Below the pieces are notes generated by a model, which did not search any database, was not told the DNA's origin, and was given only the letters and a program-made list of their open reading frames with translations. A stretch of DNA of 64,000 nucleotides from Candidatus Gastranaerophilales bacterium (lineage in GTDB: Bacteria; Cyanobacteriota; Vampirovibrionia; Gastranaerophilales; Gastranaerophilaceae), in contig CANQOQ010000011.1 of NCBI GenBank assembly GCA_947625495.1, forward strand, positions 1-64,000, written 5' to 3'. This document shows, piece by piece, positions 43,860 to 62,954 of this stretch. Position 1 is the first letter of the stretch. Each line of letters starts with the position of its first letter. Position numbers and translations under genes: made by a program.

Positions 43860-43912
43860 AAACTTTATTCTATCACATAATATGATATTATATGAAATAT
43901 GAGGAATAAATA

Positions 43913-44869
43913 ATGAAATATAAAAGCTGTCATTTATTGGAACATGGACTCTGTTTTTACAATCATAATTTATGTTCCTGTTGCTATGCACCTCAAGACT
44001 CATACACAAGAGCACCGTATTTAAGTTTTTTATACTTGGGTCAAAAAATAAAAAAAGAACAGCTTTTTAATAAGATAAATAAAAGAAGAGAAGAACAAAA
44101 AAAAGGCAATTTCATAATAAGCTGCAATAATTGTTTTAAGCTTGAAGAAAAAGACTGGGATGAAGACAATTATATAGATCAAATTTATATTACGCATTTT
44201 GAACAGTGTAATCTTAATTGCATTTATTGTATTACGGACTTGTCTCCCAAAGAAAGAGCAAAAGAAACATATAAAATTATTCCTGTTCTTGATAATTTAA
44301 AAGAACAGGGTATATTAAGACAAGGCTGTGAATTTCATATCGGAGGAGGAGAATTCTCTATTTATCCTGAATGTGATGAAATAATTGAAAAATATATTCT
44401 TTCAGGATTTTCTAAATTTTTGGCTATCGCAACAAATGCAGTTGTATATAAAGAATCTGTATTTAATGCAATGGATAAAGGAAAAGCCTGTATTATTGTC
44501 TCCGTTGACTCGGGTTCAAAAAATATGTATAAAAAGATAAAAAGAGTTGATGCTTTTGATAAATTAATCGAAAATTTAAAGTTATACTCAAGAACCGAAA
44601 GCTCACGGGCAAATACGTTTTTAAAATATATCGTTATACCGAAAATAAACGATAATAAAAGAGAATTCGATAAGTTTTTAAATTTAGCAAATAAATTAAA
44701 CATAAAAGGCATAAAAATTGATGTTGACGGCAATTATGCCAGAAATAATTTATATAAACTTAACGATAAAATAAATAATTTCCTTACCTGGACAGTGGAC
44801 AGAGCTAAATCTAAAGGATTTGACGTAGAAATCTTTAGTTTTTACAAGCAATGTCTAAATTCTATTTAA
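43913..44869 (+). CDS. Radical SAM protein, class A
   Basis: A 318-residue member of the radical SAM set. N-terminal Cys6, Cys14, Cys21, Cys23, Cys24 and the CNNC pair (Cys71, Cys74) precede CX3CX2C at Cys99, Cys103, Cys106 (CNLNCIYC). The GGEP motif is altered to GGGEFSIYPE, keeping the Glu but losing Pro. SVDSGSKNMYKKIKRVD and KYIVIPKINDNKREF are family motifs. RBS GAGGAATAAATA precedes the ATG. The end overlaps the convergent radical SAM gene by eight bases. Confidence 0.86.
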   Translation: MKYKSCHLLEHGLCFYNHNLCSCCYAPQDSYTRAPYLSFLYLGQKIKKEQLFNKINKRREEQKKGNFIISCNNCFKLEEKDWDEDNYIDQIYITHFEQCNLNCIYCITDLSPKERAKETYKIIPVLDNLKEQGILRQGCEFHIGGGEFSIYPECDEIIEKYILSGFSKFLAIATNAVVYKESVFNAMDKGKACIIVSVDSGSKNMYKKIKRVDAFDKLIENLKLYSRTESSRANTFLKYIVIPKINDNKREFDKFLNLANKLNIKGIKIDVDGNYARNNLYKLNDKINNFLTWTVDRAKSKGFDVEIFSFYKQCLNSI

Positions 44870-45857
44870 CAGAATATCCTTTTTCCAGTACTTTTGTTGT
44901 ATAAGGCGGAATGCCAAGTATAATAGAATTTTTCTTGCAAACTTCTTTTGCATACTTAACTATCTCATAGTAATGCTTAGGTATAGTATATGCTTTATCT
45001 ATTATATCTCTATAATCTATATCTAATACAATAATTTTTACATTCAGCTCAATCATTAAATTAATAAATTTACCGAATTCATCTATATTATCATTAAATC
45101 CTTCAACCAATATATATTTGATTATAATAGAATCATTACCGGCAGATTCAATATAACGCCTGATATTCTCAACAGACTTGTCAAATTTATCAACTTGTTT
45201 AATTTTAAAATAAGTTTCCTTTGTTCCTGAGTCTAATGCCGTACACATTTCACCTTTTTTCAACTTTAAAAGTTTTTCAATTACAGGCATATAAATTATA
45301 TTATTTGTCGGGATATATATAGTTCCGACACCTCGTTTTAAAAAAGTATTTATAATTTCTTCATGGTTTTTCAGGCAAGAAATATTACCGCCTTGAAAAT
45401 CAATATAAAGCTTTTCTTTATCTATTAAATCATTATCATACAGTTCATTAATGAATTTAAGGACATCATATAAAACAGGTTTATTTTCATCCTCTTTGAT
45501 TTTTTCAAGACTTCTGTTACCCTGAGTACAGTATATACATGCACAATTACACTGTGTATAATGGTTAAGCGTTATTTTATCTATTTTAAAATTATCTGTC
45601 GGTTTATAATCTGTCAAATGTACGCAATTTTGACAATTTTTGGGAATTCTTCCTTTTTTTAACAGATTAATTATTTTCTTTTTTCTATTTATAAATTCTT
45701 TTATAGATTCTTTTTTAGACAAATTACTTACAAGAGAAGGACCTATATTTGCACTGCAGCATGGTTCCAATGTATCTCTTGAAGCAAAATGCAGGTTAGT
45801 GTTTAACAAGGGACACATATATGAGTGATTATTCTTAAATAAATTTAAAATATTCAT
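44862..45857 (-). CDS. Radical SAM protein, class A' (QGG[ND] variant)
   Basis: A 331-residue protein. An upstream ATG at 45902 would overlap the divergent neighbour, so the start at 45857 (MNILNLFKNNHSYM) is chosen; it gives family length. Cys15, Cys33, Cys34 and NCQNC (Cys75, Cys78) precede CX3CX2C at Cys103, Cys107, Cys110 (CNCACIYC). In place of GGEP it has DFQGGNISCLK, with the SAM-contacting Glu replaced. ALDSGTKETYFKIKQVD and KYILVEGFNDNIDEF follow. It shares CC-x-x-x-x-GPS with the genes at 45880 and 59938, forming a subclass. Its -10 box is shared with the divergent gene at 45880. Confidence 0.84.
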   Translation of the reverse strand: MNILNLFKNNHSYMCPLLNTNLHFASRDTLEPCCSANIGPSLVSNLSKKESIKEFINRKKKIINLLKKGRIPKNCQNCVHLTDYKPTDNFKIDKITLNHYTQCNCACIYCTQGNRSLEKIKEDENKPVLYDVLKFINELYDNDLIDKEKLYIDFQGGNISCLKNHEEIINTFLKRGVGTIYIPTNNIIYMPVIEKLLKLKKGEMCTALDSGTKETYFKIKQVDKFDKSVENIRRYIESAGNDSIIIKYILVEGFNDNIDEFGKFINLMIELNVKIIVLDIDYRDIIDKAYTIPKHYYEIVKYAKEVCKKNSIILGIPPYTTKVLEKGYSVK

Positions 45858-45863
45858 AGAAGT

Positions 45864-45873
45864 ATTATATAAT
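45864..45873. promoter_or_regulatory. Symmetric bidirectional -10 box between two radical SAM genes
   Basis: The palindrome ATTATATAAT reads TATAAT on both strands (45868-45873 plus; 45869-45864 minus). Each TATAAT is followed by exactly six bases and then ATG (45880 plus, 45857 minus), so both transcripts would be leaderless. The intergenic gap is only 22 bases and no ribosome binding site is present for either gene. Confidence 0.65.
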
Positions 45874-45879
45874 GGATTT

Positions 45880-46872
45880 ATGAAAAAAAGGTACTTTTGC
45901 AAAAGATTAAATGAAACACTAAACTTTGATGCACTAAAAGTATTTTACTGCTGTGCAACAAGAACAGGACCTTCTATTGATGTGCCTGAACCTAAAAATG
46001 TAAAAGATATTATAAAAAAACGAAATTCAATTATCAAAATGCTTGATAAAGGAAAAATTCCTGAAGAATGCAAGGATTGTTTTGATTTAAGAGAAAAGGA
46101 AAATCCCAAACCTCTATTTTTAAGTTATTTTGAGAAAATGCCAAAGGCTAATCTTATTATAGTTAAACATTTTAAACAATGTGATTGCAGCTGTATTTAT
46201 TGCTGCGAGCAATATTTATCAAAAAGAAAAATTGTTTTAAAATCTAAAAAAAGCGATTACTATGACCTTTTACCCATAATAGAAGAACTTTATAAACAGG
46301 ATATAATTGATAAAAAAGAACTTGATGTACATTTTCAGGGCGGAAATGTTTCTGTTTTAGATGAATTTGAACCGTTAGTCGATATTTTTATTAAAAATGG
46401 AGTAAAACGTATTGAAATTGCTACTAACGGTATAAAATATCTTCCTAAAATAGCACAAATTGCTAATAAAACATTTGTTGATGTTAATATTTCAATTGAT
46501 TCAGGTTCAAGAGAAACTTTTAAAAAGATTAAAACCGTTGATAAATTTGATGATGTTATAGAAAATCTGAAAAAATATGTTAAATTACCTATCCTTTTAA
46601 GACTTAAATATATTCTGGTAAGAGGAGTAAATGATAATATTGAAGAACTTACTAAATATATAGAATTAATGCATAAAATCGGAATAACTAACTCGGAACT
46701 TATGATTGATCAGTGTGACAATGAATTTATTTCTGAAGGTGAATTTAAAATTCCTGACTATTATTATGATTTATTTAAATTTTATAAAGATAAATGCAAG
46801 GAATACAATATTCAAGCAAATATATGGGAATACATTAAAGAAATATTAGATAAAGGTTCATTTTTTAAATAA
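45880..46872 (+). CDS. Radical SAM protein, class A' (QGG[ND] variant)
   Basis: A 330-residue protein with Cys7, Cys24, Cys25, ECKDC (Cys64, Cys67) and CX3CX2C at Cys101, Cys105, Cys108 (CDCSCIYC). The GGEP region reads HFQGGNVSVLDEFEP, the same Glu-to-Asn change as its divergent neighbour. SIDSGSRETFKKIKTVDKFD and KYILVRGVNDNIEEL match the family. The start is six bases after a TATAAT box. It overlaps the convergent class B gene by 15 bases. Confidence 0.86.
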   Translation: MKKRYFCKRLNETLNFDALKVFYCCATRTGPSIDVPEPKNVKDIIKKRNSIIKMLDKGKIPEECKDCFDLREKENPKPLFLSYFEKMPKANLIIVKHFKQCDCSCIYCCEQYLSKRKIVLKSKKSDYYDLLPIIEELYKQDIIDKKELDVHFQGGNVSVLDEFEPLVDIFIKNGVKRIEIATNGIKYLPKIAQIANKTFVDVNISIDSGSRETFKKIKTVDKFDDVIENLKKYVKLPILLRLKYILVRGVNDNIEELTKYIELMHKIGITNSELMIDQCDNEFISEGEFKIPDYYYDLFKFYKDKCKEYNIQANIWEYIKEILDKGSFFK

Positions 46873-47871
46873 TTTTTGCAAAATATTTTTATTCGGTTTT
46901 AATTTAAGCAGATAATCATTTACCTGGCAGGAATCCTCCTTAAATATCGGATTATTTAGTATTTTTACAAGTTTATTATAGTTTTTATGAGAAGGAAGTG
47001 AAATATCCAAATCCTTCTCTAAAGTATCAGAATCAATCTGTCTATGGTAATTAATAAAAAATGCTCTTGCCCCGAGACTTTTTGCAAATCGCGCAAAATC
47101 TATCATTTCTTTATAATTTAGTGATGTTACTACAAAATTTAATTGTAAATTATTAATTAGTCCCTGTTTTTTTAGCTCTGCAATATATTTAACATTTTCA
47201 ATTACTGCTTTAAAATTACCATGCTCAACAAGTTTATCATAAGTTCTTTCACTTATCGCATGCATTGATATGGTAACTGATTCCATTTTATCTTTCAGGT
47301 CAAGTTTTTCTATCATATCTTTAGTAAATAAAATACCGTTGGATATAATTCTAAACTTAATATCAGGATTGATATTAATAATTTTTTTAACAATTTCAAT
47401 CGAATGTCTGCTTGCAAATAATTCACCGGCAGAGTTTAGTTCAACTGTTTGGACCTTTTTTAATATAGGTGTAAATATAGAATCAAAATTTTCTTCAATT
47501 CTTTTCTCTTTTTGCCTGTTATATTCCTCTTCCTCTTTATTTTTTTCATTTCTGCAAAATATACAGCGGACATTACATCTTCTGTCATAACTAAATTCAA
47601 TCTGTTTGGGATATTCACAAACTAAATCCGCTTTGAAGTTATCATCAGATAGAAATGGCTCACATTCATTCAACTTACAATATTTAAATTGATTATCTAT
47701 AAACTGCTGTCTAAACTTCTTTGCTTTTTCACCATTCCATATTTCATCAAAAGACTCTTCAAAAATATTGCCGAATGAATAAAAATCCGTCCAATAGCAG
47801 CAGCAACAATATACCTCTCCCGTATTTTGTATTTGTATACTATTAAACGGATGTTTACATATTTTATTCAT
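46858..47871 (-). CDS. Radical SAM protein, class B (N-terminal SPASM-like domain)
   Basis: A 337-residue protein in which a SPASM-like module comes first: Cys5, a GEVYCCCC run (Cys22-25), FGNIFEESFDEIWNG (residues 33-47), Cys65 and Cys70, then the radical SAM domain with CX3CX2C at Cys99, Cys103, Cys106 (CNVRCIFC). SPASM usually follows the radical SAM domain, so this order is reversed; no C-terminal SPASM is seen. ISMHAISERTYDKLVEHGNF is characteristic of this class. It sits 40 bases downstream of the SGNH protein on the same strand, probably in one unit. Confidence 0.86.
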   Translation of the reverse strand: MNKICKHPFNSIQIQNTGEVYCCCCYWTDFYSFGNIFEESFDEIWNGEKAKKFRQQFIDNQFKYCKLNECEPFLSDDNFKADLVCEYPKQIEFSYDRRCNVRCIFCRNEKNKEEEEYNRQKEKRIEENFDSIFTPILKKVQTVELNSAGELFASRHSIEIVKKIININPDIKFRIISNGILFTKDMIEKLDLKDKMESVTISMHAISERTYDKLVEHGNFKAVIENVKYIAELKKQGLINNLQLNFVVTSLNYKEMIDFARFAKSLGARAFFINYHRQIDSDTLEKDLDISLPSHKNYNKLVKILNNPIFKEDSCQVNDYLLKLKPNKNILQKLFKK

Positions 47872-47911
47872 AACAGAATTTTATTATAATTTTTTTACTA
47901 AAGCAAAATAA

Positions 47912-48781
47912 TTACTTTTGTTTTAATTCTTTAGCAATATATGGAACCAATAATTTCCATGCTTCTTCTGTAGGATGTCCTATATCAGATCTATATTTTG
48001 AATCATTTAAATTCTCTTTTGTTAAATCTGAAACAGAAATTAATTTTATCCCTTTTTCTTCCATATTTTTAAATAATACAGGATAACCATTATATAAATC
48101 CCAATATACCAGAACAACTAATTTGATATTCGGATTTATCTTTTTTAATTCTTTATTTAATTTATCAAAATGAATTAATGTATTCTCTTCTATGGAAGGA
48201 GTAGTATCTTTTTTTATTTTTTCCACTAAATATTTATTAAAAATTCTATAAGCCGGATGTCCTTCAATAAATGTATGTTTTGTAGTATATAGTTGAAGTT
48301 CATTATCCTTATTTAATATAAACTTGGGATATAAATATTTATTATAAATAAAATATTTATCAAAATATGGACCGGGATAAACAGATAATCTAAAACTATC
48401 CTTTATAACAGGAAGAACATATATAACATATTCACTATTTTTAATAATATCATCCAATTGATGACTTTGAACTTGAATAATAGCGTGCTGGATATAATCT
48501 CCACCTTTACCTCTATTATAGACAGGTCTTTTCATATAATCTGACAATTGGGCAGCAAATGTCCGATTATCGTTAAGTCCGAGACCTTCTGCATATCCGC
48601 AGCCAAATATAATAATTGACTTTTTATTTTTATAGTCTAAACCGCTTGGTTCTCTATATTGTGTTGTTTTTATATAATTTTCTATTGAGAAATTTTTTAC
48701 ATTTATAGATGGGAAGATAACATAAAAACAGAGCAAAAATACTATTACAGCAACTGCTAAAATAGAAAATATTTTCTTCAT
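47912..48781 (-). CDS. Membrane-anchored SGNH-like protein lacking the catalytic serine
   Basis: A 289-residue protein, N-terminal anchor at residues 5-24 (FSILAVAVIVFLLCFYVIF). The fold blocks are readable: IIIFGCGYAEGLGLNDNRTF (block I), YNRGKGGDYIQHAI (block II), and DIGHPTEEAWKLL near the C-terminus (Asp-x-x-His). Compared with GCSYVYG of the paralogue at 9576, the nucleophile Ser position is Gly62 (codon GGA). It may be a non-catalytic glycan-binding form, or use another residue. First gene of a unit with the class B radical SAM downstream. Confidence 0.75.
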   Translation of the reverse strand: MKKIFSILAVAVIVFLLCFYVIFPSINVKNFSIENYIKTTQYREPSGLDYKNKKSIIIFGCGYAEGLGLNDNRTFAAQLSDYMKRPVYNRGKGGDYIQHAIIQVQSHQLDDIIKNSEYVIYVLPVIKDSFRLSVYPGPYFDKYFIYNKYLYPKFILNKDNELQLYTTKHTFIEGHPAYRIFNKYLVEKIKKDTTPSIEENTLIHFDKLNKELKKINPNIKLVVLVYWDLYNGYPVLFKNMEEKGIKLISVSDLTKENLNDSKYRSDIGHPTEEAWKLLVPYIAKELKQK

Positions 48782-48843
48782 AAAACTACCTCTTAATTAA
48801 AACTTATTTTATAATATAAAATATATCATAAAAGGGAATCAAA

Positions 48844-49836
48844 ATGAAATATATAAGTTGTTCTAATATACAAAACGGATTAAGATTTGAGTATAACAGT
48901 ATCAAGTTTTGCTGTTTTATGGGAACTGACACACCTGAACCTTTTTACATAAAGAAGGATTATTACGGAGAAAAACTTAACTGGGATGAACTTCTTGAAA
49001 ATATAAATACAGTAAGAAAAAACCAGAAATCCGGTATAATTGACCCGCACTGTAAAGGATGTTTCGGTTTAACGGAACAAGAATGGGATGACAATACAAA
49101 ATTTAAATGGATACAAATAGCGCACTGGGCTGATTGTAATTGTTTTTGTACATATTGTTATCGTTATCAAAGCGACTTTGAAAAGCCGAAAAAACGCTAT
49201 AAAATCATGCCTATAATAAAAGAACTTGACAGAATGGGGCTTATAGATTACAACGGAGAACTTGCATACTCAGGCGGAGAGCCCTCGTGTCTAAGAGAAT
49301 TTGATGAAATAACTAATTTCTTTATAAAGAAGCAAGAACGACTGATAATGGTACATACTAATGCAATAAAACCGGTAAAATCAGTATTAAACGGATTAAA
49401 AACAGATACTATGTCAGTAACTGTCAGTGTTGATTGCGGTGACAGGCAAAAATATAAAGAGATTAAGCGAATTGATGCCTATGATAAAGTTATGAATACC
49501 CTTAAAAAGTATGTTAAAGCGCAAGGTAATAATAAGAATATGGTAAGATCCAAATATATTCTTATTCCAAAAGTTAATGACAATAAAGAAGATATAAATA
49601 AATGGATTGAAGAAACTTTAAAAATAGGAATACAAACTGTTATTTTAGATTTTGAAGCTGATTGGCTAGCCAGAAATTCAAACAACATTCCTGAATATAT
49701 TGATGATTTGTATGAATATATTGTATCCGAAACAAAACAAAGAGGTTTAGAATTGCAGTTTTACGGAGTCGCTAATCAATACAGAACTATTATGGGAAAA
49801 GATTTAGACGGAATCGGACTTCATAACGGAGAATAA
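48844..49836 (+). CDS. Radical SAM protein, class A
   Basis: A 330-residue protein. Cys6, Cys23, Cys24 and HCKGC (Cys70, Cys73) precede CX3CX2C at Cys98, Cys102, Cys105 (CNCFCTYC), then YSGGEPSCLREF and SVDCGDRQKYKEIKRID, KYILIPKVNDNKEDI. TATAAT at about 48812-48817 and AAAAGGGAATC form its promoter and RBS. The end overlaps the convergent class B gene by 33 bases, the largest tail-to-tail overlap in the window. Confidence 0.87.
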   Translation: MKYISCSNIQNGLRFEYNSIKFCCFMGTDTPEPFYIKKDYYGEKLNWDELLENINTVRKNQKSGIIDPHCKGCFGLTEQEWDDNTKFKWIQIAHWADCNCFCTYCYRYQSDFEKPKKRYKIMPIIKELDRMGLIDYNGELAYSGGEPSCLREFDEITNFFIKKQERLIMVHTNAIKPVKSVLNGLKTDTMSVTVSVDCGDRQKYKEIKRIDAYDKVMNTLKKYVKAQGNNKNMVRSKYILIPKVNDNKEDINKWIEETLKIGIQTVILDFEADWLARNSNNIPEYIDDLYEYIVSETKQRGLELQFYGVANQYRTIMGKDLDGIGLHNGE

Positions 49837-50856
49837 TTTATTTTTTAATCTGTCTTTTAAAGATATAGGCTCTAACCCCGTAAAATATTCCCAGCCTTGA
49901 ATAACTATATCTTTTGAATTCATAAATTCGGACGAATGAACCGTTTTAATAAGTTTATTATAATCAGGGTGCATTGGATTTTGTATATTAATTTTTTTAT
50001 ATGTATCTTCACATCCCTTAGAACAATCTAACCCCAAAAATCTTATTTTTGCTCCGATATCCCTGACAAAATGCAGCATTGGAATCATTTCTTTATAATT
50101 AATACTTGTAACGGTATAGTGAATTTCAAAACGTTCAATTTTTCCTGTTTTTTTAAGTTCCGACAAATATTTAATATTTTCTATTACTTTTTTATAATTT
50201 CCGCCTCTTACAATTTGGTTATAAGTATCTTCATAAAATGCGTGTAAAGAAACCGTCATCATTGAGATTCTGCCCAAAAGATTCAATCCTTCAATATTTT
50301 CCTTTGTGCACTGTATACCGTTCGTTATAATTTCAAATTTAATATCGGGAAATTTATCTGCAATATTTTTAATCAAATCTCTTGAAATTTTACTTGCAAA
50401 AACTTCACCTACTGCATTTGTTTTAACATATTTTGCATTTTTAAGCCACGGAGTGAGGATTTCAAGCAGTTTATCTTTTTTATCCTCAGGAATTAGTTTT
50501 GTATCTATTTTATAATTTTCACTTCTGCAAAAAATACATTTTACGTCACAAAATTCATCCAAACCCAATAGTATACGCTCTGGCGGATTGGAAATTAATT
50601 TAGGTTCAGAAGAGTTAATTTCTTCAAGGATTTCAAGGTTTTGACACCCCGGGCAAAGCGAAAAATCGTTATCATAAAGTTTTTGTCTGAATTCACGTGC
50701 TTTTTCACCGTTCCAAATTTCTTCATAAGACTGTTCGAATATATTACCAAACGAATATCCCCTAATCCAGCCGCAGCTACAGGGATATACATTACCATAA
50801 GGCATTATTTCCGCCAGAATATATGGATTAGGACAATATATATGCTTATTTTCCAT
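49804..50856 (-). CDS. Radical SAM protein, class B (N-terminal SPASM-like domain)
   Basis: A 350-residue protein with the SPASM-like module first: Cys8, YPCSCGW (Cys26, Cys28), FGNIFEQSYEEIWNG (residues 36-50), Cys68 and Cys71, then CX3CX2C at Cys103, Cys107, Cys110 (CDVKCIFC). KTNAVGEVFAS replaces the GGEP region, as in class B generally. Last of three overlapping-spaced minus-strand genes (B-A-B order); one base separates it from the class A gene upstream. Confidence 0.86.
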   Translation of the reverse strand: MENKHIYCPNPYILAEIMPYGNVYPCSCGWIRGYSFGNIFEQSYEEIWNGEKAREFRQKLYDNDFSLCPGCQNLEILEEINSSEPKLISNPPERILLGLDEFCDVKCIFCRSENYKIDTKLIPEDKKDKLLEILTPWLKNAKYVKTNAVGEVFASKISRDLIKNIADKFPDIKFEIITNGIQCTKENIEGLNLLGRISMMTVSLHAFYEDTYNQIVRGGNYKKVIENIKYLSELKKTGKIERFEIHYTVTSINYKEMIPMLHFVRDIGAKIRFLGLDCSKGCEDTYKKINIQNPMHPDYNKLIKTVHSSEFMNSKDIVIQGWEYFTGLEPISLKDRLKNKLFSVMKSDSV

Positions 50857-50857
50857 C

Positions 50858-51841
50858 CTACCTGCCGTTATTTATATATCTTATTACATCCGTATAACCG
50901 CAGGTTGTTAAAATTTCTCTGTATGAGAGGTTGCATTTATGCTCATGAACATATTTAACAACCAGTTCAATATATTCTTTAACATTATCGGGACAATATT
51001 TATTTTTTTCATACCAGTGATGTTCAAGTTCAAGCTGTAAATTAGTTATGCCTAAATCTTTAACAATTTTAAGCCAGCTTTGAATTTCTTCTAAAGTATC
51101 ATTGTATCCGGGAATGAAAATAAATTTTAAGCCTATCAAACTGTTACGAATCGGATCTAAACCTTTTTGATATCTTTTTATGTTTTTAATAACTTTATTA
51201 AAGCAATCGGCATTTTTTATTTTTTTATATGTTTCTCTGGTTCCGGCATCAAGAGAAATTGTGGGAGCCGAGCGCTTAAGTTCGATGGCTTTTCTTATCC
51301 ACTTAGAATAATCAAAAGCCGCAGTATTTGTCATTATAAATATATTTGTTTTTTCCAGGAAAAATTTCATTAAATCAGGAAATTCTTTTAATACCGTGGG
51401 CTCGCCGCCTGTTATATTAACGTTTCCTTCATAGCTCAACATATTATTTTTAAGTGCGTCTTTTAAAACAGGAAGAATTTTCCATGGTTTCATTTTATTT
51501 AATTCTTTTTTACGTTCATGCGTATGGCAATATATACAATCTAACGGGCAATTTTCCCAGTGATTAATAAGAATATATTTAAGCTGCATATCTCCGGACC
51601 AGTCTTTAACTTTTAAACTGGGGCAGCCTTGGCAGATTGGAGGAATATCATTTTTTGCAAATCTGTCACGATATTCCTGTTTAATTTGTCTTATTTTATC
51701 CCAATCAAAAAGCTCACCTTTATAATCTTCAATTATTTTTATTGCTTCAAATTTCATGCACATTGAATACGAACATAAAACCGCCGCATCATATATAAAA
51801 CACATTCCGTTTTCTACAAACTCACAAGATAAATATGCCAT
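50858..51841 (-). CDS. Radical SAM protein, class A
   Basis: A 327-residue protein. Cys6, Cys14, Cys23, Cys28 and CQGC (Cys70, Cys73) precede CX3CX2C at Cys98, Cys102, Cys105 (CPLDCIYC). NITGGEPTVLKEF, SLDAGTRETYKKIKNAD and KFIFIPGYNDTLEEI follow. Middle gene of the B-A-B unit; it starts one base after the upstream gene stops, and its neighbours on both sides are class B, which suggests the two classes act together. Confidence 0.87.
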   Translation of the reverse strand: MAYLSCEFVENGMCFIYDAAVLCSYSMCMKFEAIKIIEDYKGELFDWDKIRQIKQEYRDRFAKNDIPPICQGCPSLKVKDWSGDMQLKYILINHWENCPLDCIYCHTHERKKELNKMKPWKILPVLKDALKNNMLSYEGNVNITGGEPTVLKEFPDLMKFFLEKTNIFIMTNTAAFDYSKWIRKAIELKRSAPTISLDAGTRETYKKIKNADCFNKVIKNIKRYQKGLDPIRNSLIGLKFIFIPGYNDTLEEIQSWLKIVKDLGITNLQLELEHHWYEKNKYCPDNVKEYIELVVKYVHEHKCNLSYREILTTCGYTDVIRYINNGR

Positions 51842-51842
51842 T

Positions 51843-52868: not shown

Positions 52869-52912
52869 AAATACCTCTTACTTAAAATATATAATAAAAT
52901 GCGATATTTTGG

Positions 52913-52918: not shown

Positions 52919-52939
52919 ATTTACAAAAGGAAGAACAAA

Positions 52940-53962: not shown

Positions 53963-53965
53963 TAG

Positions 53966-55576: not shown

Positions 55577-55684
55577 ATTTTAGATTTACCAATTCTTAAT
55601 TTTTTAATGATTATAATTTTTTTGCCCTGTTCAAAAAAGCAAGATTTAAATTTATATTAATTCTATATTTATTATATTTTTTTA

Positions 55685-57454
55685 CTATTTTATTAAATTA
55701 AAATCGACTTTATTCAATTCATCTTGAGTTAATACTCCGCCATTTTTATAAAAATCATCCAGTGCTTCATCTATAGGTTTAAATATCATTGCATAATATA
55801 TAGGTATATTAATCGGATTTATTTTATACGTTAATATATGATCCTGAAACTCATTAGGTTGTTTGGCATTCATATACATAACTATATATTTTAAAATTAT
55901 ATTTCTTTCATCAAATGACAAACTATCAAATATTTTTTTACTTATTACATTTTTATATTCTTTAAACATATAATCTGAATACACATAAATCTTTATATAT
56001 TGAATAAATATATTTGCATGTTCTTCAATATTATAATATTTTTTTACATATTGTATATAATGGGGATATTTAAATCCGTAGTATATTTTATCTTTATAAT
56101 TATTATTTTTAATATCAATAGGAAATAAATTATTAGATGTAGGAAGAATTATATCAATATTATCTGCCGGTAATATTGCTGTTTTACCTTGTTTGAAATA
56201 GAATACAGCAACTTTATCTGTTAAATATAAAGTTTGTTTTTTGTTTATATCCGAAATTTTCACATTGCTGTAATTATTAAATATAAACAGTAATGGTGGA
56301 ATCAGCATTATAATTAAAAAGATGTTCTTTTCTCTTTTACCGATTTCTTGTGTTATAAAAATCCCCGTTAAATACAATAATATACAATATAATACTATTC
56401 TTAAATCTAACAATAAAATTTTATATAATATCCAAAATCTTGGATATATATAATAGTTTTCATCCAGAGTATAATCATATGTCTCTCCAAAAAAATATAA
56501 TGAAAGATAAAAAATAACTATCCCTATATAAGTATATATCGCATATTTTATTATTTCGTTTTTATTCTCTATTTTTGAATATTTAATAAATACAAGACAA
56601 ATAATTGATGGTATCCAAAGAAATAAATTTTTTAAAAATACTATATTTATAAGCATCTTAAGAAAAATAGGAATTGTCTCTAATTTAAAATAAGCTTTAA
56701 TTCCCCAGTCTTCCAGAAGTTGTTGAGTTCCTGCTGCACTATATGCTATATATACTGCTATTAAGCATATTATAAGAGGATAATATATATATCCGTTTAT
56801 TTTTACATTCTTATCCTTTATTTTTAATATTATATTTTCTATTAATAATAAAGATAATAATACTAATGTAACAGCTGCAACTAATTCATTTCCCGTTCCC
56901 GTCAATAACGCGAATATACACAATATAAATATATCTTTTTTTGTAGGACTCTTTTTAAAAATATAGTAATCTGATATTCTAAGCCAAAGCGGTATAAAGA
57001 ATAGAAATGGTACTATATATCCGCAAAAAAACTGCATTGTATCAAATATTGAATTTAGTCCTTTTAATAAGGATACCAATAGAAAGAATGAGAAAATGTA
57101 TATTAAGAAATTATATTTATTTAGATTTTTAACTTGTCCTGAAAAACATTTTCCTATTATAAAAATTACGAATGTAAATAAACCCGCTTTTGTTAATCCC
57201 TCAGATACAAAAGCAAAATTCTGTACATGTATTTTTAATAATTCAGGAAGAGTTTTCACCATAAATACACTAAACAATTCCGTAAAATAACGTCCATGTA
57301 TAAATTTAACATTTCCAAGCAATATATCAGTTATATCGTCATTTACAACTATTGCATATCTTAACTTATATGCCATATATACAAAAATAAACACTAAAAC
57401 AAGGGAATTCAAATACTTTATATTTTTTTTATTAAAGATTAGTTCTTTCAGCAT
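55685..57454 (-). CDS. Polytopic membrane protein, GT-C-like glycosyltransferase candidate (paralogue)
   Basis: A 589-residue paralogue of the protein at 53966: the first 36 residues are almost the same (MLKELIFNKKNIKYLN), and NDD (Asp39, Asp40) with HGRYFTEL (Gly54, Arg55) are kept. It carries about fifty extra residues before the shared C-terminal PIDEALDDFYKNGGVLTQDE. Stretches of DNA in the middle of the two genes are nearly identical, so the duplication is recent or the copies recombine. Its start overlaps the end of the radical SAM gene at 57448 by seven bases, so they are coupled. Confidence 0.77.
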   Translation of the reverse strand: MLKELIFNKKNIKYLNSLVLVFIFVYMAYKLRYAIVVNDDITDILLGNVKFIHGRYFTELFSVFMVKTLPELLKIHVQNFAFVSEGLTKAGLFTFVIFIIGKCFSGQVKNLNKYNFLIYIFSFFLLVSLLKGLNSIFDTMQFFCGYIVPFLFFIPLWLRISDYYIFKKSPTKKDIFILCIFALLTGTGNELVAAVTLVLLSLLLIENIILKIKDKNVKINGYIYYPLIICLIAVYIAYSAAGTQQLLEDWGIKAYFKLETIPIFLKMLINIVFLKNLFLWIPSIICLVFIKYSKIENKNEIIKYAIYTYIGIVIFYLSLYFFGETYDYTLDENYYIYPRFWILYKILLLDLRIVLYCILLYLTGIFITQEIGKREKNIFLIIMLIPPLLFIFNNYSNVKISDINKKQTLYLTDKVAVFYFKQGKTAILPADNIDIILPTSNNLFPIDIKNNNYKDKIYYGFKYPHYIQYVKKYYNIEEHANIFIQYIKIYVYSDYMFKEYKNVISKKIFDSLSFDERNIILKYIVMYMNAKQPNEFQDHILTYKINPINIPIYYAMIFKPIDEALDDFYKNGGVLTQDELNKVDFNLIK

Positions 57455-58833
57455 ATTCTTATACCGTTTTTTAGTATTTTAAAAAAGTTAAAACCCGTCA
57501 GCTCAATTTTAGATTCGCTGGTTTTTAGTATTTCCTCAATGATTTTATTATTTTTATTTGTTTTAAAATTCAAATCAAACCCAAGTCTTAAAAGTGTCAA
57601 TGATTTTTGTTCAAAATCAGGTGATTTGGTAATATTTTTATATTTTGAGGTCAAGAATGCGGTTCTAAAAGGTGCAAATTTTTCACTTTGAACCAATTTG
57701 TCTATCTCATCCAATTGTTGTTTAGATAATTCATCAATATTTATATATACATTTTTATAAAAACTGTTATTATCAGCATTTTCTGTTATAAGATTTAAAT
57801 CCTTATATAGATTTTTATTTTTCAAATAGAAATCAATTTGAGAAGATTTTATTCTTTTTGCCCTGTTCATAAAAGCGATATTTGAATTTAGCGTAATATT
57901 ATATTGTTTTGCTTTATTTTCTGCATATTTTAGCATATTAAGAGTTCTGTTAATATATTTTTTATTTTCGCAGGTTTCGGAAGAGGAAACAGAGTGTTCT
58001 GCGTCAAATTGAACTTCCAAAATCCCCAAATTACTGCAATTTTTCAGCCACGAATCTATTTCACAGACTCTATCATTATAGCCTGTAAGCAGTATATATT
58101 TTAGAATAACAAAGTTTTTCAAACGGGAATGAGAAAGGTATATTTTCATATTTTTCATAACGATATCGAAAAATTTTGTACCTTTAATCTTTTCAAAAGT
58201 TTCTTTTGTACCGGAATCAACACTTGCGACGATAGCTGCGCTATTTACTTTTTCAAGAGCTTTACAAAGACTTTTTGACAGTTTTATTGCCGAGGTAGGA
58301 ACATATATTTCATCAACATTATTTTGAGAAAATAAATCTACGAGCCAATCAAATTCTTTAATCAAGGTAGGTTCTCCACCGACGAAGCGAAGAGAGCCGT
58401 CAAATTTAAGCAATTTTTTTTCAATAAGTTCTTCAATAACAGGTTTGATATCAAATTCTTGTTCTCTATCATGCCTTTCGGGGATTCTGCCTATCGAGCA
58501 GTAAATACATCTTGAATTACATTTCATAATATGGCCTGCAGTCAAGTGATTTATATAATCTTCATCATCCCAATTTTTTTCGGCAAGTTCAAAGCAGCCG
58601 TCACATTGCACGGGGTAAATTCCCTTTTTAGCATTTTCTCTTAACTTTCGTTTTTCTGAGAAAATATAGTCCCAATTTAATGCTTCTTTTTTTAAATCCT
58701 GATAGATATAAAGTCTGTCATGAAATTCCAAATGATCAGTATTACAGCAGTGACCTAAACATATCTGCTGAGTACCCGGGTCTTGATAAATATATATTCC
58801 GTGTTCTAATAACCTGCAGCTTTTATACTTCAT
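57448..58833 (-). CDS. Radical SAM protein, class A, with C-terminal extension
   Basis: A 461-residue protein: residues 1 to about 325 are class A (Cys6, Cys25, Cys29, Cys30, QCDGC at Cys77 and Cys80, CX3CX2C at Cys105, Cys109, Cys112 in CNSRCIYC, FVGGEPTLIKEF, SVDSGTKETFEKIKGTK). About 130 residues are added, mostly charged and helical, ending FNFFKILKNGIRIC, with no recognised domain. First gene of a unit with the two GT-C-like genes. TAATAT lies exactly six bases before the ATG, a leaderless arrangement. Confidence 0.86.
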   Translation of the reverse strand: MKYKSCRLLEHGIYIYQDPGTQQICLGHCCNTDHLEFHDRLYIYQDLKKEALNWDYIFSEKRKLRENAKKGIYPVQCDGCFELAEKNWDDEDYINHLTAGHIMKCNSRCIYCSIGRIPERHDREQEFDIKPVIEELIEKKLLKFDGSLRFVGGEPTLIKEFDWLVDLFSQNNVDEIYVPTSAIKLSKSLCKALEKVNSAAIVASVDSGTKETFEKIKGTKFFDIVMKNMKIYLSHSRLKNFVILKYILLTGYNDRVCEIDSWLKNCSNLGILEVQFDAEHSVSSSETCENKKYINRTLNMLKYAENKAKQYNITLNSNIAFMNRAKRIKSSQIDFYLKNKNLYKDLNLITENADNNSFYKNVYINIDELSKQQLDEIDKLVQSEKFAPFRTAFLTSKYKNITKSPDFEQKSLTLLRLGFDLNFKTNKNNKIIEEILKTSESKIELTGFNFFKILKNGIRIC

Positions 58834-58894
58834 AAATAAATATTAGCACTTAAAGATATTTCTTCCAAATTTTATAAATAGTTATATATCATGA

Positions 58895-58900
58895 TATAAT
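58895..58900 (+). promoter_or_regulatory. -10 element for the radical SAM pair at 58920-60927
   Basis: TATAAT at 58895-58900, then CTGATAGAGAGGTAAAAAT and the ATG. GAGAGGT serves as ribosome binding site. It lies in an 86-base divergent gap. Confidence 0.5.
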
Positions 58901-58919
58901 CTGATAGAGAGGTAAAAAT

Positions 58920-59930
58920 ATGGGAAAGATGTACAGATGCAGATATTTAGCGCATGGGCTTTATATACATTATGATTGTTTTCGGCATTGTCATCTTTCA
59001 ATTCATTCTCCGAAAGAGAGAGACAACAATTATATAATTCCATACACAGGTCCAAAAGACAGAGTTGACTGGGAAAGAGTATTTAAGATTAAGAATAAGC
59101 TTGTAAAAGAGATGAGGGAAGGTAATATTCCTGCATTTTGTCAAGGTTGTCATTGGATAGAGGAGTTTGATGAAAGTTCATCGGAGCAGTTTAATTCTGA
59201 CATGGATAATTATCTTGATATGTTGTGGATAGGTCATTCTAACGAGTGTAATGCCAATTGCATTTATTGTTTTTCATATCAGCAAATACATGAGCACAAA
59301 ACGATAAAGGGATATGATATATTTCCTTTGTTCAAAGAGCTTTTAGAGAAGAAGATATATAATATAGAGAAGAATCCTGATGCACATATTTCATTTGCCA
59401 TGGGTGAGCCTACTATATTAAAGAAATTTGACGATATTATCAAAATTTTTGAGAAATACGGCAATAAGTTTTTTGCGCTTTATACAAACGGAATCCATTA
59501 CAGTAAGATGACGCAGAAAGTTTTAGAGAATCCGGATGTTGAAATAAAAGTAGTCATTTCGCTGGATGCCGGTACTAAAGAGGTATTTAAGGAAGTAAAA
59601 AAAGTTGATAAATTTAAGGATGTATGTAATAACATCAAGAAATACGCACAAGCAGCAAAGAAGGCAAATCCTGTTGATTTAGGGGTAAAATACATTATCA
59701 TTCCGAATATCAATGATACAAAGGAAGAAATAGACAAGTGGTTTGATTTATGTGTAAATAAGCTTGGGGTCAAATATTTAATAGCGGATGTTGAGGAGAA
59801 GTGGTTTGTAAGGCAGAATGGGGAGGTTCCCGAATATGTAAAAGAGCTTCTCAGATACATTAGAGAGCGCTCAATTGATGCGGGGATTGAGTTTGAGTTT
59901 TATGACAGAGCTTTAGTATTAAATCTGTAA
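58920..59930 (+). CDS. Radical SAM protein, class A
   Basis: A 336-residue protein. Cys7, Cys20, Cys24 and FCQGC (Cys74, Cys77) precede CX3CX2C at Cys110, Cys114, Cys117 (CNANCIYC). The GGEP motif reads FAMGEPTILKKF, with the first Gly changed to Met. SLDAGTKEVFKEVKKVDKF and KYIIIPNINDTKEEI follow. Codon use is richer in AAG and GAG than in neighbours up to 57454, a sign of different origin or expression. Seven bases separate it from the next radical SAM gene. Confidence 0.86.
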   Translation: MGKMYRCRYLAHGLYIHYDCFRHCHLSIHSPKERDNNYIIPYTGPKDRVDWERVFKIKNKLVKEMREGNIPAFCQGCHWIEEFDESSSEQFNSDMDNYLDMLWIGHSNECNANCIYCFSYQQIHEHKTIKGYDIFPLFKELLEKKIYNIEKNPDAHISFAMGEPTILKKFDDIIKIFEKYGNKFFALYTNGIHYSKMTQKVLENPDVEIKVVISLDAGTKEVFKEVKKVDKFKDVCNNIKKYAQAAKKANPVDLGVKYIIIPNINDTKEEIDKWFDLCVNKLGVKYLIADVEEKWFVRQNGEVPEYVKELLRYIRERSIDAGIEFEFYDRALVLNL

Positions 59931-59937
59931 GGGAAAA

Positions 59938-60927
59938 ATGGGCAAGGAATATTTTTGTGACGAATTAAATAATGTATTATCCTGTTTTCATGACAGGATA
60001 ATGTCGTGTTGCAGCGGGCAGATAGGGCCTGTATATTATGAAAAATACAGGGGGCAGAAAATAGACTGGGATGCTTTCAGGAAAGTAAAAGAGGATGCAT
60101 TTAGTCTGTTAACTGAAGAAAATATAGATAAATCGCCTTGCAAGGGTTGTTTTTTTCTGAGGGAAAGAAGGCAGAGTGACAAAGTAAGTCCTAATTTTAA
60201 TATGCTGAACATAAGCCACTGGACACAATGTAACTGCGGATGTATATATTGTGCAAGGATGCTTGATTCTAAGGGCAGAATTGACTTAAAGCCAATGAAA
60301 AGCGAATATTATGACATGCTGCCTTTATTAAAGGAATTATACAGGGAGAATCTGTTAGACAGGGAAAATTTAACCGTATGTATTCAAGGTGGAGATATTT
60401 CCGTTTTAAAAGAGTTTGAACCGATGGTTAAAGAATTTTTAAAGCAAGGTGTAAAAAGATTTAATATATTATCAAATAACATTGTATATCAGCCGATAAT
60501 AAAGAAGCTTTTGAACAGGAATCTTGTTGATTATACAACTTCGCTGGATTGTGCAACGAGGGAAATTTATTATAAATTAAAGAGGGTTGATAAATTCAGG
60601 GAGTCGGTTAATAATTTAAGGAAATATGCAAAAGCTAAGTTTGGCGGATGTGTTACCGTTAAATATATAGTTATAGAGCATATCAACGATAATGTTGAAG
60701 AGGTAAAGAAGTTTGTAAATTTAATGGCGGATATCGGGATAAAGAGAATAGAGTTTATGATAGACAATAAATATGTACTCTTTACTGATTTAGAAAAGAC
60801 GCCTATACCAAAGCATTACAAGGAATTATATTTAACATTTAAGCATCTTTGCGAAGAAAAAGGGATAATACTTCAAGTTTGGGATAAGACGAAATATATT
60901 TTGGATAAATATGTTTTAGCCGTTTAA
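59938..60927 (+). CDS. Radical SAM protein, class A' (QGG[ND] variant)
   Basis: A 329-residue protein. Cys7, Cys16, Cys24, Cys25 and PCKGC (Cys68, Cys71) precede CX3CX2C at Cys98, Cys102, Cys105 (CNCGCIYC). The GGEP position is CIQGGDISVLKEFEP: the Glu is Asp here, Asn in the two genes at 44862 and 45880. SLDCATREIYYKLKRVDKF lacks the usual Gly after the Cys. KYIVIEHINDNVEEV follows. Codon use resembles the preceding gene. It overlaps the convergent gmd gene by 12 bases. Confidence 0.86.
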   Translation: MGKEYFCDELNNVLSCFHDRIMSCCSGQIGPVYYEKYRGQKIDWDAFRKVKEDAFSLLTEENIDKSPCKGCFFLRERRQSDKVSPNFNMLNISHWTQCNCGCIYCARMLDSKGRIDLKPMKSEYYDMLPLLKELYRENLLDRENLTVCIQGGDISVLKEFEPMVKEFLKQGVKRFNILSNNIVYQPIIKKLLNRNLVDYTTSLDCATREIYYKLKRVDKFRESVNNLRKYAKAKFGGCVTVKYIVIEHINDNVEEVKKFVNLMADIGIKRIEFMIDNKYVLFTDLEKTPIPKHYKELYLTFKHLCEEKGIILQVWDKTKYILDKYVLAV

Positions 60928-61941
60928 TTTTTCTTCAATCAGGTCTTGATTAACCATTTCTTTAATAATGTCATCGATTGAGTATTCTGTATGCCAGCCG
61001 AGGAGTTTTTGTGCTTTTGAGAAATCACCTATAGGATTCATTTTTTCAAGCGGGCGGGTGAACATAGGGTCAATATCAATAATGAGTTTACCCGTTTTAG
61101 CATCAAAAGCCTTTTCTTCTGTGCCTTCACCTTTAAAGACGAGGTCAATATCAAGTTCTTTAAAGGTTTTTTTGCAAAAGTCTCTAAGGCTGGTAGTTTT
61201 ACCGGTAGCGAAGACAAAATCTTGTGCTTGGGGGTACTGCATAGCGAGGTACATACCTCTTACGACATCTTTAGCGTGTCCCCAATCTCTTTTAACTGAG
61301 AGGTTGCCTAAAGAGAGTTTTTCCTGTTTTCCGAGTTTAATTCTAACGGCAGCTTTAGTAATTTTTCTTGTAACAAAAACGGCAGGGCGTCTTTTCGACT
61401 CATGTGCGAAAGCTATTCCGTTTACAATAAACATACCGTGCTGTCTCATACACTTTGCGAGAAGAAAGGCATAAGCTTTAGCGCAGGCATAAGGATTTAT
61501 GGGCTGCACCAGAGTATTTTCATTAAGTACTTCATCATCAACATTACCGAATATGTCAGAAGTAAGTGCCTGATATATTTTAACTTTTTGCCCCAAATCA
61601 AGAGCATTAACGGCATTTATCAAGCGTAAAAAGCCGACAGCGTTAACGTTTGTAGTATATTCCGAGAAATTAGAAGACAATCCGACGTGTGACTGTGCTG
61701 CGAGGTTATAGATTTCATCGGGGTTTGATGTTTTTACTGCTTTAAATATGCTTGCTTCATCTGTCATGTCGCCATAGAGTATATGCAGATTTTTATTGTT
61801 TAAAAGATGTTCAATTCTGTATTTATTGTTAACTGAGGACATTCTGACAAGCCCGTATACTTCATAATCTTTATCAAGTAACAGTTCAGCGAGGTAGCTT
61901 CCGTCTTGTCCCGTGATTCCGGTAATTAGTGCTTTTTTCAT
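60916..61941 (-). CDS. gmd: GDP-mannose 4,6-dehydratase-like SDR enzyme
   Basis: A 341-residue extended short-chain dehydrogenase. The NAD(P) motif is ITGITGQDGSYLAELL; AAQSHVG and the YACAKAYAF (Tyr-x-x-x-Lys) motif are the active site; AFAHESKRRPAVFVTRKITKAA is characteristic of GDP-mannose dehydratases. It would convert GDP-mannose (from manC) to GDP-4-keto-6-deoxymannose. SDIFGNVDDEVLNE replaces the usual SELYG, so a related hexose-nucleotide dehydratase is possible. Its ATG overlaps the stop of the upstream radical SAM gene by four bases (ATGA), so the two are translationally coupled. Confidence 0.88.
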   Translation of the reverse strand: MKKALITGITGQDGSYLAELLLDKDYEVYGLVRMSSVNNKYRIEHLLNNKNLHILYGDMTDEASIFKAVKTSNPDEIYNLAAQSHVGLSSNFSEYTTNVNAVGFLRLINAVNALDLGQKVKIYQALTSDIFGNVDDEVLNENTLVQPINPYACAKAYAFLLAKCMRQHGMFIVNGIAFAHESKRRPAVFVTRKITKAAVRIKLGKQEKLSLGNLSVKRDWGHAKDVVRGMYLAMQYPQAQDFVFATGKTTSLRDFCKKTFKELDIDLVFKGEGTEEKAFDAKTGKLIIDIDPMFTRPLEKMNPIGDFSKAQKLLGWHTEYSIDDIIKEMVNQDLIEEKLNG

Positions 61942-62954
61942 GACATTTTTTTCCCCAGTTTTGTGTATACATAGCCAATATTTGGGAAGAAAACATATTC
62001 AAGTTTATTTTTCAATGCTTCAGACTTAAAGAATTCAGCGAGTTGATATAAATTATTTAACAAATTTTCTTCATAATTCATTTCATTTAGAAGCTGGTTA
62101 TAGACGTTAACGGCGACGTGTGTAGCGCCATTTTTCTTTGATTGTTTAATAAATTCTGCTATTTCTTTTTTTGAGTCATTAACATTCGGCACTATTACAT
62201 ATTTTGTGCATAATTTTTTTGAATATTCTTTAGTTTTAGCTTTTGAGTATTTTTTAAAATTATGCCAAACTTTATCAAAAGATTTAACTCTTTTAACTTT
62301 TTCGTGCATTTTTTTTGAACCTGCATCTATTGATATCATAAGGCTTATTGCGTTTTGTTTTATACCTTTTGCAATGAGGTCGGAATATTGAATATTATTT
62401 GTATGAATAATAATATTGTTAAAATTATTTTCGAGTAAGAAATCAATAATTTGGTTAAATTTAGGGTACAAAGTAGGTTCACCGCCTGCGAAATCTATTT
62501 TTGCATTTTTATCCAAGATATTGCGGTCAGTCATATCTTTAAGGATTTTAATCATATCATAGGGTTCAACGAATTTTTTATAATCCTGATGATATCTTGG
62601 CGAGTTTGGATTTAAGGGTTCAACATGACCAAGGCAGTATATACAATTTGAGTTACAAATCTGCCACGGTGAAAGCAGTATATATTTAATTTTTCTGTCA
62701 TATTTATAATCGGATTCAATAATTTGCGGACAATTGAAACATTCTTTTCTCGGATTACCATTTTTAATATTTTCAATTTCTTTATCACGTTCAATAAAGA
62801 ATTTATCCCAATCAATATTTTGCCCGTCAAAGACTTCATCGGGAATTTTAGGCCAGCCAAGACCGTTTGAAGCATTAGTCAGTGTACAATAGGTAATACC
62901 TATTGAATATACGTTAAAACAAACAGATGTACAATAACTTTCGCAAATTTTCAC
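61938..62954 (-). CDS. Radical SAM protein, class A
   Basis: A 338-residue protein. Cys4, Cys8, Cys12, Cys23 and ECFNC (Cys72, Cys75) precede CX3CX2C at Cys100, Cys104, Cys107 (CNSNCIYC). DFAGGEPTLYPKF, SIDAGSKKMHEKVKRVKSF and KYVIVPNVNDSKKEI follow. It is four bases downstream of a small gene and overlaps gmd, giving an unknown-radical SAM-gmd unit. This is the clearest operon link between the radical SAM set and nucleotide-sugar chemistry in the window. Confidence 0.87.
   Translation of the reverse strand: MKICESYCTSVCFNVYSIGITYCTLTNASNGLGWPKIPDEVFDGQNIDWDKFFIERDKEIENIKNGNPRKECFNCPQIIESDYKYDRKIKYILLSPWQICNSNCIYCLGHVEPLNPNSPRYHQDYKKFVEPYDMIKILKDMTDRNILDKNAKIDFAGGEPTLYPKFNQIIDFLLENNFNNIIIHTNNIQYSDLIAKGIKQNAISLMISIDAGSKKMHEKVKRVKSFDKVWHNFKKYSKAKTKEYSKKLCTKYVIVPNVNDSKKEIAEFIKQSKKNGATHVAVNVYNQLLNEMNYEENLLNNLYQLAEFFKSEALKNKLEYVFFPNIGYVYTKLGKKMS

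Follow-up and report, generated by a model that had tools for sequence, protein, structure and literature searches.

Many diverged copies of an undescribed radical SAM family in a Gastranaerophilales genome, probably acting on the cell envelope

A run of thirteen radical SAM genes between positions 43913 and 62954 of the window, the 64,000-nucleotide stretch of Candidatus Gastranaerophilales DNA analysed here, raises the question of what so many related enzymes do in one place. Every one of the thirteen open reading frames named in a preliminary description lies where it was placed, and each encoded protein contains the CX3CX2C motif exactly once. We assigned ten of them to one family (fam-1) and three to another (fam-2) (Table 1). 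Two more fam-1 genes lie outside the main array at 23479–26794; both had been reported as radical SAM genes and both are present, but the second (24506–26794) is actually a radical SAM–MATE fusion. The motif, which had been described as common to the set, is found in 15/15 array and core proteins, and the separate gene at 41648 does encode a B12-binding radical SAM protein, as had been proposed. The array is real, but the picture of a single locus is not: it is one among several in the 1.88-Mb source genome, which holds ~37 fam-1 genes spread over several arrays and single sites. Across this genome, PF04055 gives 80 matches, 75 of which are above cut-off.

Table 1. Positions of the radical SAM genes and their companions in the window
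Feature	Position	Strand	Details
Second SGNH-like protein, GCS motif intact	9576..10517	-	away from array
R23, core fam-1 radical SAM (OG0)	23479..24519	+	CX3CX2C at residue 113
R24, fam-1 radical SAM–MATE fusion	24506..26794	+	Radical_SAM ~95-255, MATE 341-731
Glycan-type companions	39352..43036		GT2 (39352), DegT aminotransferase (40036), WbuC-like cupin (41159), B12 radical SAM (41648)
GT2 glycosyltransferase	43023..44015	-	PF00535 87 bits
fam-1 radical SAM (OG25)	43913..44869	+	PF04055 58 bits; orthologues in G049, G307
fam-1 radical SAM (OG14)	44862..45902	-	PF04055 43.8 bits; orthologues in 3 congeners
fam-1 radical SAM (OG24)	45880..46872	+	PF04055 51 bits; orthologues in 3 congeners
fam-2 radical SAM, N-terminal SPASM	46858..47871	-	SPASM 5-70, Radical_SAM 97-262
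Membrane-anchored SGNH-like protein	47912..48781	-	alignment of 31 homologues: Gly here for Ser; HP..W block kept
R48, fam-1 radical SAM (OG9)	48844..49836	+	PF04055 62.5 bits; AlphaFold2 model
fam-2 radical SAM, N-terminal SPASM	49804..50856	-	SPASM 8-72
fam-1 radical SAM (OG13)	50858..51841	-	PF04055 64.6 bits; adjoins fam-2 genes in four genomes
fam-2 radical SAM, N-terminal SPASM	51843..52868	-	SPASM 8-69
fam-1 radical SAM (OG17)	52940..53962	+	PF04055 66.5 bits
Two paralogous polytopic membrane proteins	53966-55576, 55685-57454 (53966..57454)	-	67% mutual identity
fam-1 radical SAM, ~130-aa C-terminal extension (OG23)	57448..58833	-	PF04055 48.8 bits; 437-479 aa orthologues in 3 congeners
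fam-1 radical SAM (OG20)	58920..59930	+	PF04055 59.6 bits
fam-1 radical SAM (OG16)	59938..60927	+	PF04055 44.9 bits
GDP-mannose 4,6-dehydratase (gmd)	60916..61941	-	PF16363 370 bits
fam-1 radical SAM (OG19)	61938..62954	-	PF04055 60.3 bits

The array and core proteins score 41–68 bits against PF04055 (41–66 for the thirteen array proteins), for which the Pfam cut-off is 29.5. Alignment, which the preliminary description had suggested as a check, resolves two families: the fam-1 proteins (the ten array members with those encoded at 23479 and 24506) share 25–41% pairwise identity, and the three fam-2 proteins (46858, 49804 and 51843) are 40–43% identical to one another. Pfam SPASM (PF13186) matches the N terminus of fam-2 at 53–57 bits (cut-off, 21.5) and matches no fam-1 protein, despite four conserved N-terminal cysteines in that family. 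The N-terminal Cys regions do vary, as had been noted, but fam-1 has four common invariant residues, C6, C23, C70 and C73 in the numbering of the 48844 protein (R48), kept in at least 166/169 homologues; each Cys of the CX3CX2C core is kept in 168/169. An AlphaFold2 model of R48 (pLDDT 90.1) adopts the radical SAM fold. Motif, profile and fold agree on a radical SAM barrel that holds the CX3CX2C core, with an extra set of cysteines at the N terminus. When the R48 model was compared with known structures, the best Foldseek matches were the RiPP maturases SuiB, SkfB and CteB, with BlsE also among the best (as it was in the profile comparisons), and VIA-align returned a Z of 14.7 for the PFL-activating enzyme (PFL-AE), with PFL-AE, SkfB, Mmp10, SuiB and BlsE all within 1 Z unit. 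Because these five tie, structural neighbours are uninformative on substrate, and assigning a substrate from them was dropped.

The proteins might have belonged to a well-characterised family, as the preliminary description had allowed; no well-characterised family matched above its curated cut-off. N_Twi_rSAM (NF033640) resembles fam-1 and fam-2 in having a Cys-bearing twitch/SPASM-like segment ahead of the radical SAM core rather than behind it, but its cut-off of 170 bits is not reached (52–60 bits at best for fam-2; 28–45 bits for fam-1 where matched); to our knowledge, no function has been assigned to it and it is not expanded in arrays. SuiB, SkfB, CteB and anSME share the barrel and an auxiliary Fe–S cluster region with fam-1. 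SPASM RiPP maturases, however, have a C-terminal SPASM and a precursor peptide, whereas the extra cysteines of fam-1 are N-terminal and no precursor was found. BlsE, DesII and BtrN have the same core and provide earlier examples of radical SAM chemistry with sugar substrates, but they are single enzymes of antibiotic pathways with another auxiliary-cluster layout, and their identity to fam-1 in structural alignment is 12–17%. Prokaryotic viperins (pVip) match partially, over ~130–180 core residues (best PADLOC E, 3e-17), but the best score of 53 bits falls far below the NF038283 cut-off of 180 bits; fam-1 differs in its extra N-terminal Cys domain and has no defence context, and identity as a defence viperin was rejected, the matches being partial and confined to the core. 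Against MoaA (GTP 3′,8-cyclase), the best score is 64 bits versus curated cut-offs of 231–325. A radical SAM gene lies inside a Campylobacter jejuni HS:19 cluster that has been assigned to methylation/capsule biosynthesis (PMC8743553), but there it is one gene, whereas fam-1 is a genome-wide paralogue family. No Pfam, NCBIfam or PADLOC family describes fam-1, and no description of its expansion was found in the open-licence literature. Fam-1 is an undescribed radical SAM family, present in numerous copies that are diverged and individually conserved, many of which are arrayed.

Because ~29 one-to-one fam-1 orthogroups are found among relatives and are under purifying selection (approximate dN/dS ~0.04–0.26 between congeners, with dS near saturation; window-array members included, at 0.04–0.26), the expansion is, as judged from the sequences, an old and maintained diversification with distinct maintained functions. 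Although the loci have been rearranged, each of the four congeners compared retains most window orthogroups; the gene order fam-2–OG13–fam-2–OG9 is conserved in G000, G049 and G103, and single-copy fam-1 orthologues persist throughout the genus, which shares a core set with two other genera. Among 146 sampled genomes, an R23 orthologue is present at E ≤ 1e-90 in 11/11 with the expansion and in 0/135 others. The R23 orthologues are 79–97% identical and occupy the same hisH–pyrH site in most Gastranaerophilales loci found; one rumen relative has an orthologue at 58% identity. The wider homologue search of genome contigs used a single-protein query that recovers close relatives only, and fam-1 may occur in other phyla. 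Many fam-1 genes stand alone, each at the end of a housekeeping operon. Recent tandem duplication was ruled out by the paralogue identity of 25–43% and the old orthogroups. Phage or plasmid origin was likewise rejected: R23 had no match in phages and plasmids, a fam-2 protein had none in phages, and R48 had none in viral contigs in a pattern-based scan that finds close relatives only.

The preliminary description set the array among sugar genes, and locally the interleaving is real (gmd, DegT, WbuC-like cupin, GT2 and SGNH). The same mix recurs, with gmd, DegT, cupin and GT2-type genes adjoining arrays in three species (G000, G049 and G103), but the coupling is not fixed, as the same orthogroups are arrayed in G307 without any sugar-nucleotide or GT2 gene. 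The companions at 39352–43036, the B12 radical SAM gene among them, have relatives that adjoin arrays of G049 and G103 but not of G307. The array-linked gmd orthologue was found only in G000, G049 and G103; two fam-1 carriers, G077 and G142, lack gmd, and 42/135 genomes without the expansion have it. This distribution rules out an obligatory GDP-sugar pathway: the fam-1 system can do without gmd, and gmd also occurs apart from it. Nor are GT2 genes clearly enriched, with 2 of the genome's 23 in ~24 kb here and 0 in the G307 arrays. Given the G307 arrays and the gmd distribution, a stable association of glycan genes with radical SAM arrays was not found across genomes, and the surface-glycan reading is supported only in part.

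Stronger links than those to glycan genes are provided by a MATE partner and an SGNH expansion, both of which travel with the system. The R24-type radical SAM–MATE fusion is also present in G049, G307, L009, L026–L028, L031, L038 and L041, a plain MATE gene follows R23 in G103, and G018 has an operon R23–OG2–OG4–MATE; G012 has no MATE after R23. The MATE-linked fam-1 members are R23, OG2/OG4 and the fused member only. The MATE domain also matches the model of the tryglysin exporter WgkD, with a score under the cut-off, and the usual exports of MATE transporters are small molecules. The membrane-anchored SGNH family has 2–14 copies in 11/11 expansion genomes, one copy in 3/135 genomes outside the expansion and none in G123, the carriers being related genera and the SGNH identity resting on motifs. 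The Ser of the block I GxS motif is kept in 28/31 homologues and the C-terminal His in 29/31; the family has no SGNH Pfam match and matches NF047474 weakly (20–22 of 300 bits). In a hand count, physical adjacency of SGNH and radical SAM genes was close to random expectation; the link holds at the genome level. SGNH proteins had been described as part of the array, which is true of one (47912) but not of the second (9576), which lies outside. Protein 47912 is possibly inactive, as predicted from its motif, because the nucleophile position reads GCG instead of GCS. SGNH enzymes mostly acylate or deacylate cell-surface carbohydrates (PMC9487903).

Fam-1 enzymes probably modify some cell-envelope component. 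The explanation that we favour, which we place somewhat short of an even chance, is that they and the fam-2 proteins are anaerobic radical SAM enzymes, each modifying its own cell-envelope (glycan or lipid-linked) substrate. The CX3CX2C cluster would cleave SAM to give a 5′-deoxyadenosyl radical, and the N-terminal Cys set would hold an auxiliary Fe–S cluster for accepting or giving back an electron, in the manner of SPASM/twitch enzymes. Within one shared and very heterogeneous product, each paralogue would make one C–H-activated change (epimerisation, dehydrogenation or dehydration) to a position or building block of its own. Because MATE adjoins or is fused to a core member and SGNH is expanded in the same genomes, this product is most likely exported from the cytoplasm to the cell envelope. 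It would most plausibly be a glycan or lipid-linked glycan that is then acylated or deacylated by the SGNH enzymes, with the dehydratase, aminotransferase and GT2 genes close by acting as optional local suppliers. The intact motif, the ~29 orthogroups, the distribution of R23 and SGNH, the MATE link, the local sugar genes and the lack of a precursor argue for this envelope-glycan reading; the G307 arrays, the gmd distribution, an SGNH link at the genome level only, the peptide-maturase folds, the usual MATE cargo and G012 argue against it. A fuller version is doubtful: in it, dozens of stably kept paralogues of an undescribed system each serve one site of a shared envelope polymer or pool of building blocks, around an R23–MATE core and in company with an expanded set of membrane-anchored SGNH enzymes.

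Peptide maturation is a common role of radical SAM enzymes that have an auxiliary cluster, and fam-1 and fam-2 might likewise act on peptides or proteins, each enzyme with its own unlinked target for epimerisation, cross-linking or oxidation and MATE exporting a small peptide. The Foldseek ranking and the sub-cut-off match to WgkD are consistent with this, but the VIA-align tie does not single out maturases, all NCBIfam maturase models score far below cut-off, and the gaps between genes, mostly <100 bp, leave almost no space for a precursor. A precursor peptide gene had been envisaged from the start as an alternative; the conserved small-ORF scan around fam-1 genes found none, the only conserved small ORF beside them encoding a 67-aa protein that adjoins OG19, and a RiPP locus with its precursor was rejected for lack of a conserved small ORF. 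Moreover, ~37 enzymes without a recognisable precursor family would be exceptional, and we consider peptide or protein maturation unlikely.

That the enzymes make a family of diffusible small molecules from nucleosides or sugars, in the manner of BlsE or viperin, for export by MATE is distinctly unlikely; the SGNH expansion would then be an independent lineage trait. The MATE adjoining or fused to core members fits such a role, as does the partial similarity of the core to BlsE, viperin and MoaA, but the corresponding models match far below curated cut-offs and in the barrel only, the conserved neighbourhoods are without tailoring, kinase or biosynthetic cluster genes, many members stand alone in housekeeping operons, and the MATE link is confined to the few members listed above. 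Copy number could also be mostly neutral, the family spreading and persisting near operon ends around a functional core of ~10 genes, with accessory copies of little consequence. Dispersed single insertions at housekeeping-operon ends and lineage-specific copies, especially in C6-type arrays, would be expected from such a process; purifying selection on window-array members, nearly invariant catalytic and auxiliary Cys, retention of most window orthogroups despite rearrangement, and the lack of mobile-element or phage homologues in the R23, fam-2 and R48 scans all speak against it, and we regard it as very improbable.

The source genome spends ~2% of its length on one undescribed radical SAM family, and the reasons for which so small a genome keeps so many oxygen-sensitive enzymes are worth knowing. 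Fam-1 could add new substrates to those known for radical SAM enzymes. Its orthogroup tree offers enzymology a ready set of ~30 paralogous specificities, and G123, a congener without the system, is a natural contrast for glycan or metabolite chemistry. If the fuller version of the envelope reading is true, some uncultured gut Gastranaerophilales would have unusually complex surface chemistry.

The annotated starts of 44862–45902 (TTG) and 43023–44015 (GTG) are probably too long, because both overlap a neighbouring gene; the true start of 44862–45902 is probably internal. The proteins that had been called GT-C-like have no Pfam or NCBIfam match, and an AlphaFold model built from two sequences was discarded (pLDDT 35). 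The polytopic proteins encoded at 53966 and 55685 have relatives only in G103 among the 146 genomes, and they alone look recently duplicated. The C6 array also contains TPR genes and more polytopic proteins.

The preliminary description had placed thirteen radical SAM open reading frames in the array; all were found, each with one CX3CX2C motif and each over the Pfam Radical_SAM cut-off (the window takes in positions 1-64000 of the 65,240-base contig; source assembly 1.88 Mb, 97% complete). In an all-against-all BLAST, ten array proteins grouped with the core protein R23 and with a radical SAM domain fused to MATE (fam-1, four N-terminal cysteines), separately from three proteins with an N-terminal SPASM domain (fam-2). 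The two family profiles align over nearly their full length (hhalign probability 97%, E 7e-11). The B12 radical SAM gene that had been set apart does belong to a different, B12-binding subfamily. Genome-wide, 80 Radical_SAM matches were obtained, 75 over cut-off. The genome also has approximately 37 fam-1 genes: some in the window, others arrayed on contigs C6, C23 and C5 or standing singly. Small TPR proteins (~100 aa) are interleaved in C6-type fam-1 arrays in two species.

Among 169 homologues, conservation reaches at least 93% at cysteines C6, C23, C70 and C73, the three core cysteines, and Y104, G144, G145, D197, K208, Y223, K237 and N245 (numbering of R48, an array fam-1 protein). The additional N-terminal cysteines would form an auxiliary cluster, and each paralogue may carry out one C-H change. 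No library family more specific than the superfamily passed its cut-off for either family except the SPASM domain of fam-2, and the match to a well-characterised family that the preliminary description had named as grounds against its reading was not found. The enzymes are a new family within a known enzyme kind.

The expansion is present in 11 of 146 genomes of the sampled family (genera g1, g19 and g13). At E<=1e-90, R23 has an orthologue in all of these 11 and in none of the other 135. Fam-1 gene counts are 37, 31 and 41-42 in the congeners G049, G103 and G307, and 18 and 10 in G018 and G012 from other genera. In another congener, G123 (pyrH 92% identical), R23 is missing at the pyrH site, and no fam-1, fam-2 or SGNH matches were obtained at the thresholds applied. 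R23 orthologues, mostly 79-97% identical, lie in Candidatus Gastranaerophilales MAGs, many apparently from gut or rumen samples; the search beyond the phylum covered close relatives of R23 only. FastTree and reciprocal best hits on draft MAGs gave approximately 29 fam-1 orthogroups common to at least two species, with a single gene per species. Congener orthologues are mostly 57-91% identical and paralogues 25-43%. That the copies are largely neutral is improbable: dN/dS is ~0.04-0.26, which points to purifying selection and, because synonymous sites are near saturation, to nothing further. The unusual aspect is the size and maintenance of the paralogue set, and a search of open-licence papers found no description of this expansion.

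Coordinates of selected features
Feature	Sequence	Position	Strand	Remark
SGNH-like gene	window	9576-10517	-	membrane-anchored family
R23 (OG0)	window	23479-24519	+	core fam-1 gene
Radical SAM-MATE fusion	window	24506
B12 radical SAM gene	window	41648
SGNH-like gene	window	47912-48781	-	same family, in array; GCG, Gly at nucleophile position vs Ser in 28/31 homologues
R48 (OG9)	window	48844-49836	+	fam-1
Two polytopic membrane protein genes	window	53966-57454	-	recent duplicates; lowest-GC stretch of window (21-23%)
67-aa ORF	window	62958-63161	-	beside OG19
Autotransporter-like gene	L001	1244-3238	-	window ~63244-64000; contig end
TPR genes	L002	10775-11113, 14238-14540		also in L102
DUF1796 gene	L110	4688-5410
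DUF1796 gene	L119	7840-8550
Tat-like radical SAM gene	L049	15899-16864	+
Tat-like radical SAM gene	L084	13845-14807	-

Coupling to glycan genes, claimed previously, holds for the arrays of the window, G049 and G103 (gmd, DegT aminotransferase, WbuC-like cupin and GT2 genes nearby) and fails for G307, where arrays of the same orthogroups are bordered by genes of the peptidase, chemotaxis and translation types, and one polytopic membrane protein is the sole candidate glycan gene. The B12 gene neighbours the arrays in the source genome and G103. Two carriers of the expansion (G077, G142) lack gmd, which is present in 42 of 135 non-carriers. The constant partners of array genes are fellow array genes, as in the conserved order fam-2, OG13, fam-2, OG9. 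Fam-1 singletons stand at the ends of housekeeping operons (glmU-prs, ribH, rpmA and recJ, for example, as named from sequence). In two other genera, a DUF1796 gene (putative papain-like peptidase) lies immediately 3′ of fam-1 OG1.

The structure model of R48 (mean pLDDT 90) shows the radical SAM fold and bears on a role in modifying peptides or proteins, which we consider unlikely. Foldseek places RiPP maturases on top, whereas VIA-align ties PFL-activating enzyme, SkfB, Mmp10, SuiB and BlsE (Z 14-15), so the predicted fold names no substrate. Less probable still is the production of exported small molecules, on which the linkage of R23 to MATE bears. R23 is flanked by hisH and pyrH in most genomes, with a GT2 gene 5′ in some only. 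The MATE gene that follows carries a second radical SAM domain as a fusion in the source genome, G049, G307 and others, is unfused in G103, and belongs to a single operon (R23, OG2, OG4, MATE) in G018; in G012 an apparent alpha/beta hydrolase gene stands in its place.

We tentatively favour action on an envelope glycan or lipid-linked substrate, with a product destined for the cell envelope, mainly because SGNH enzymes commonly transfer or remove acyl groups on carbohydrates (PMC9487903); what probability remains falls to something other than these four readings. Every one of the 11 carriers encodes 2-14 members of the membrane-anchored SGNH-like family, and 3 of 135 other genomes encode one. 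This co-distribution is suggestive rather than independent evidence, since the carriers are related to one another. The genes are dispersed or in short tandems, and physical linkage is not established, because 5 of 29 lie within 3 kb of a fam-1 or fam-2 gene (hand count, five carriers with complete fam-1 lists) against ~3 expected from the genome share within that distance. In two congeners, the place of the SGNH gene is occupied by a radical SAM protein with a Tat-like twin-arginine N terminus (MKRRDFLCGASCL...); an exported radical SAM enzyme, as this hints, would be odd. Just past the array, the 67-aa ORF, which also adjoins OG19 in G307 and G103 (91-97% identity), is far better conserved than the neighbouring radical SAM gene, and the autotransporter-like beta-barrel protein ends in an array of 22-residue repeats (KATGDGIVTASKATGNAIATGA; DNA unit 66 bp).
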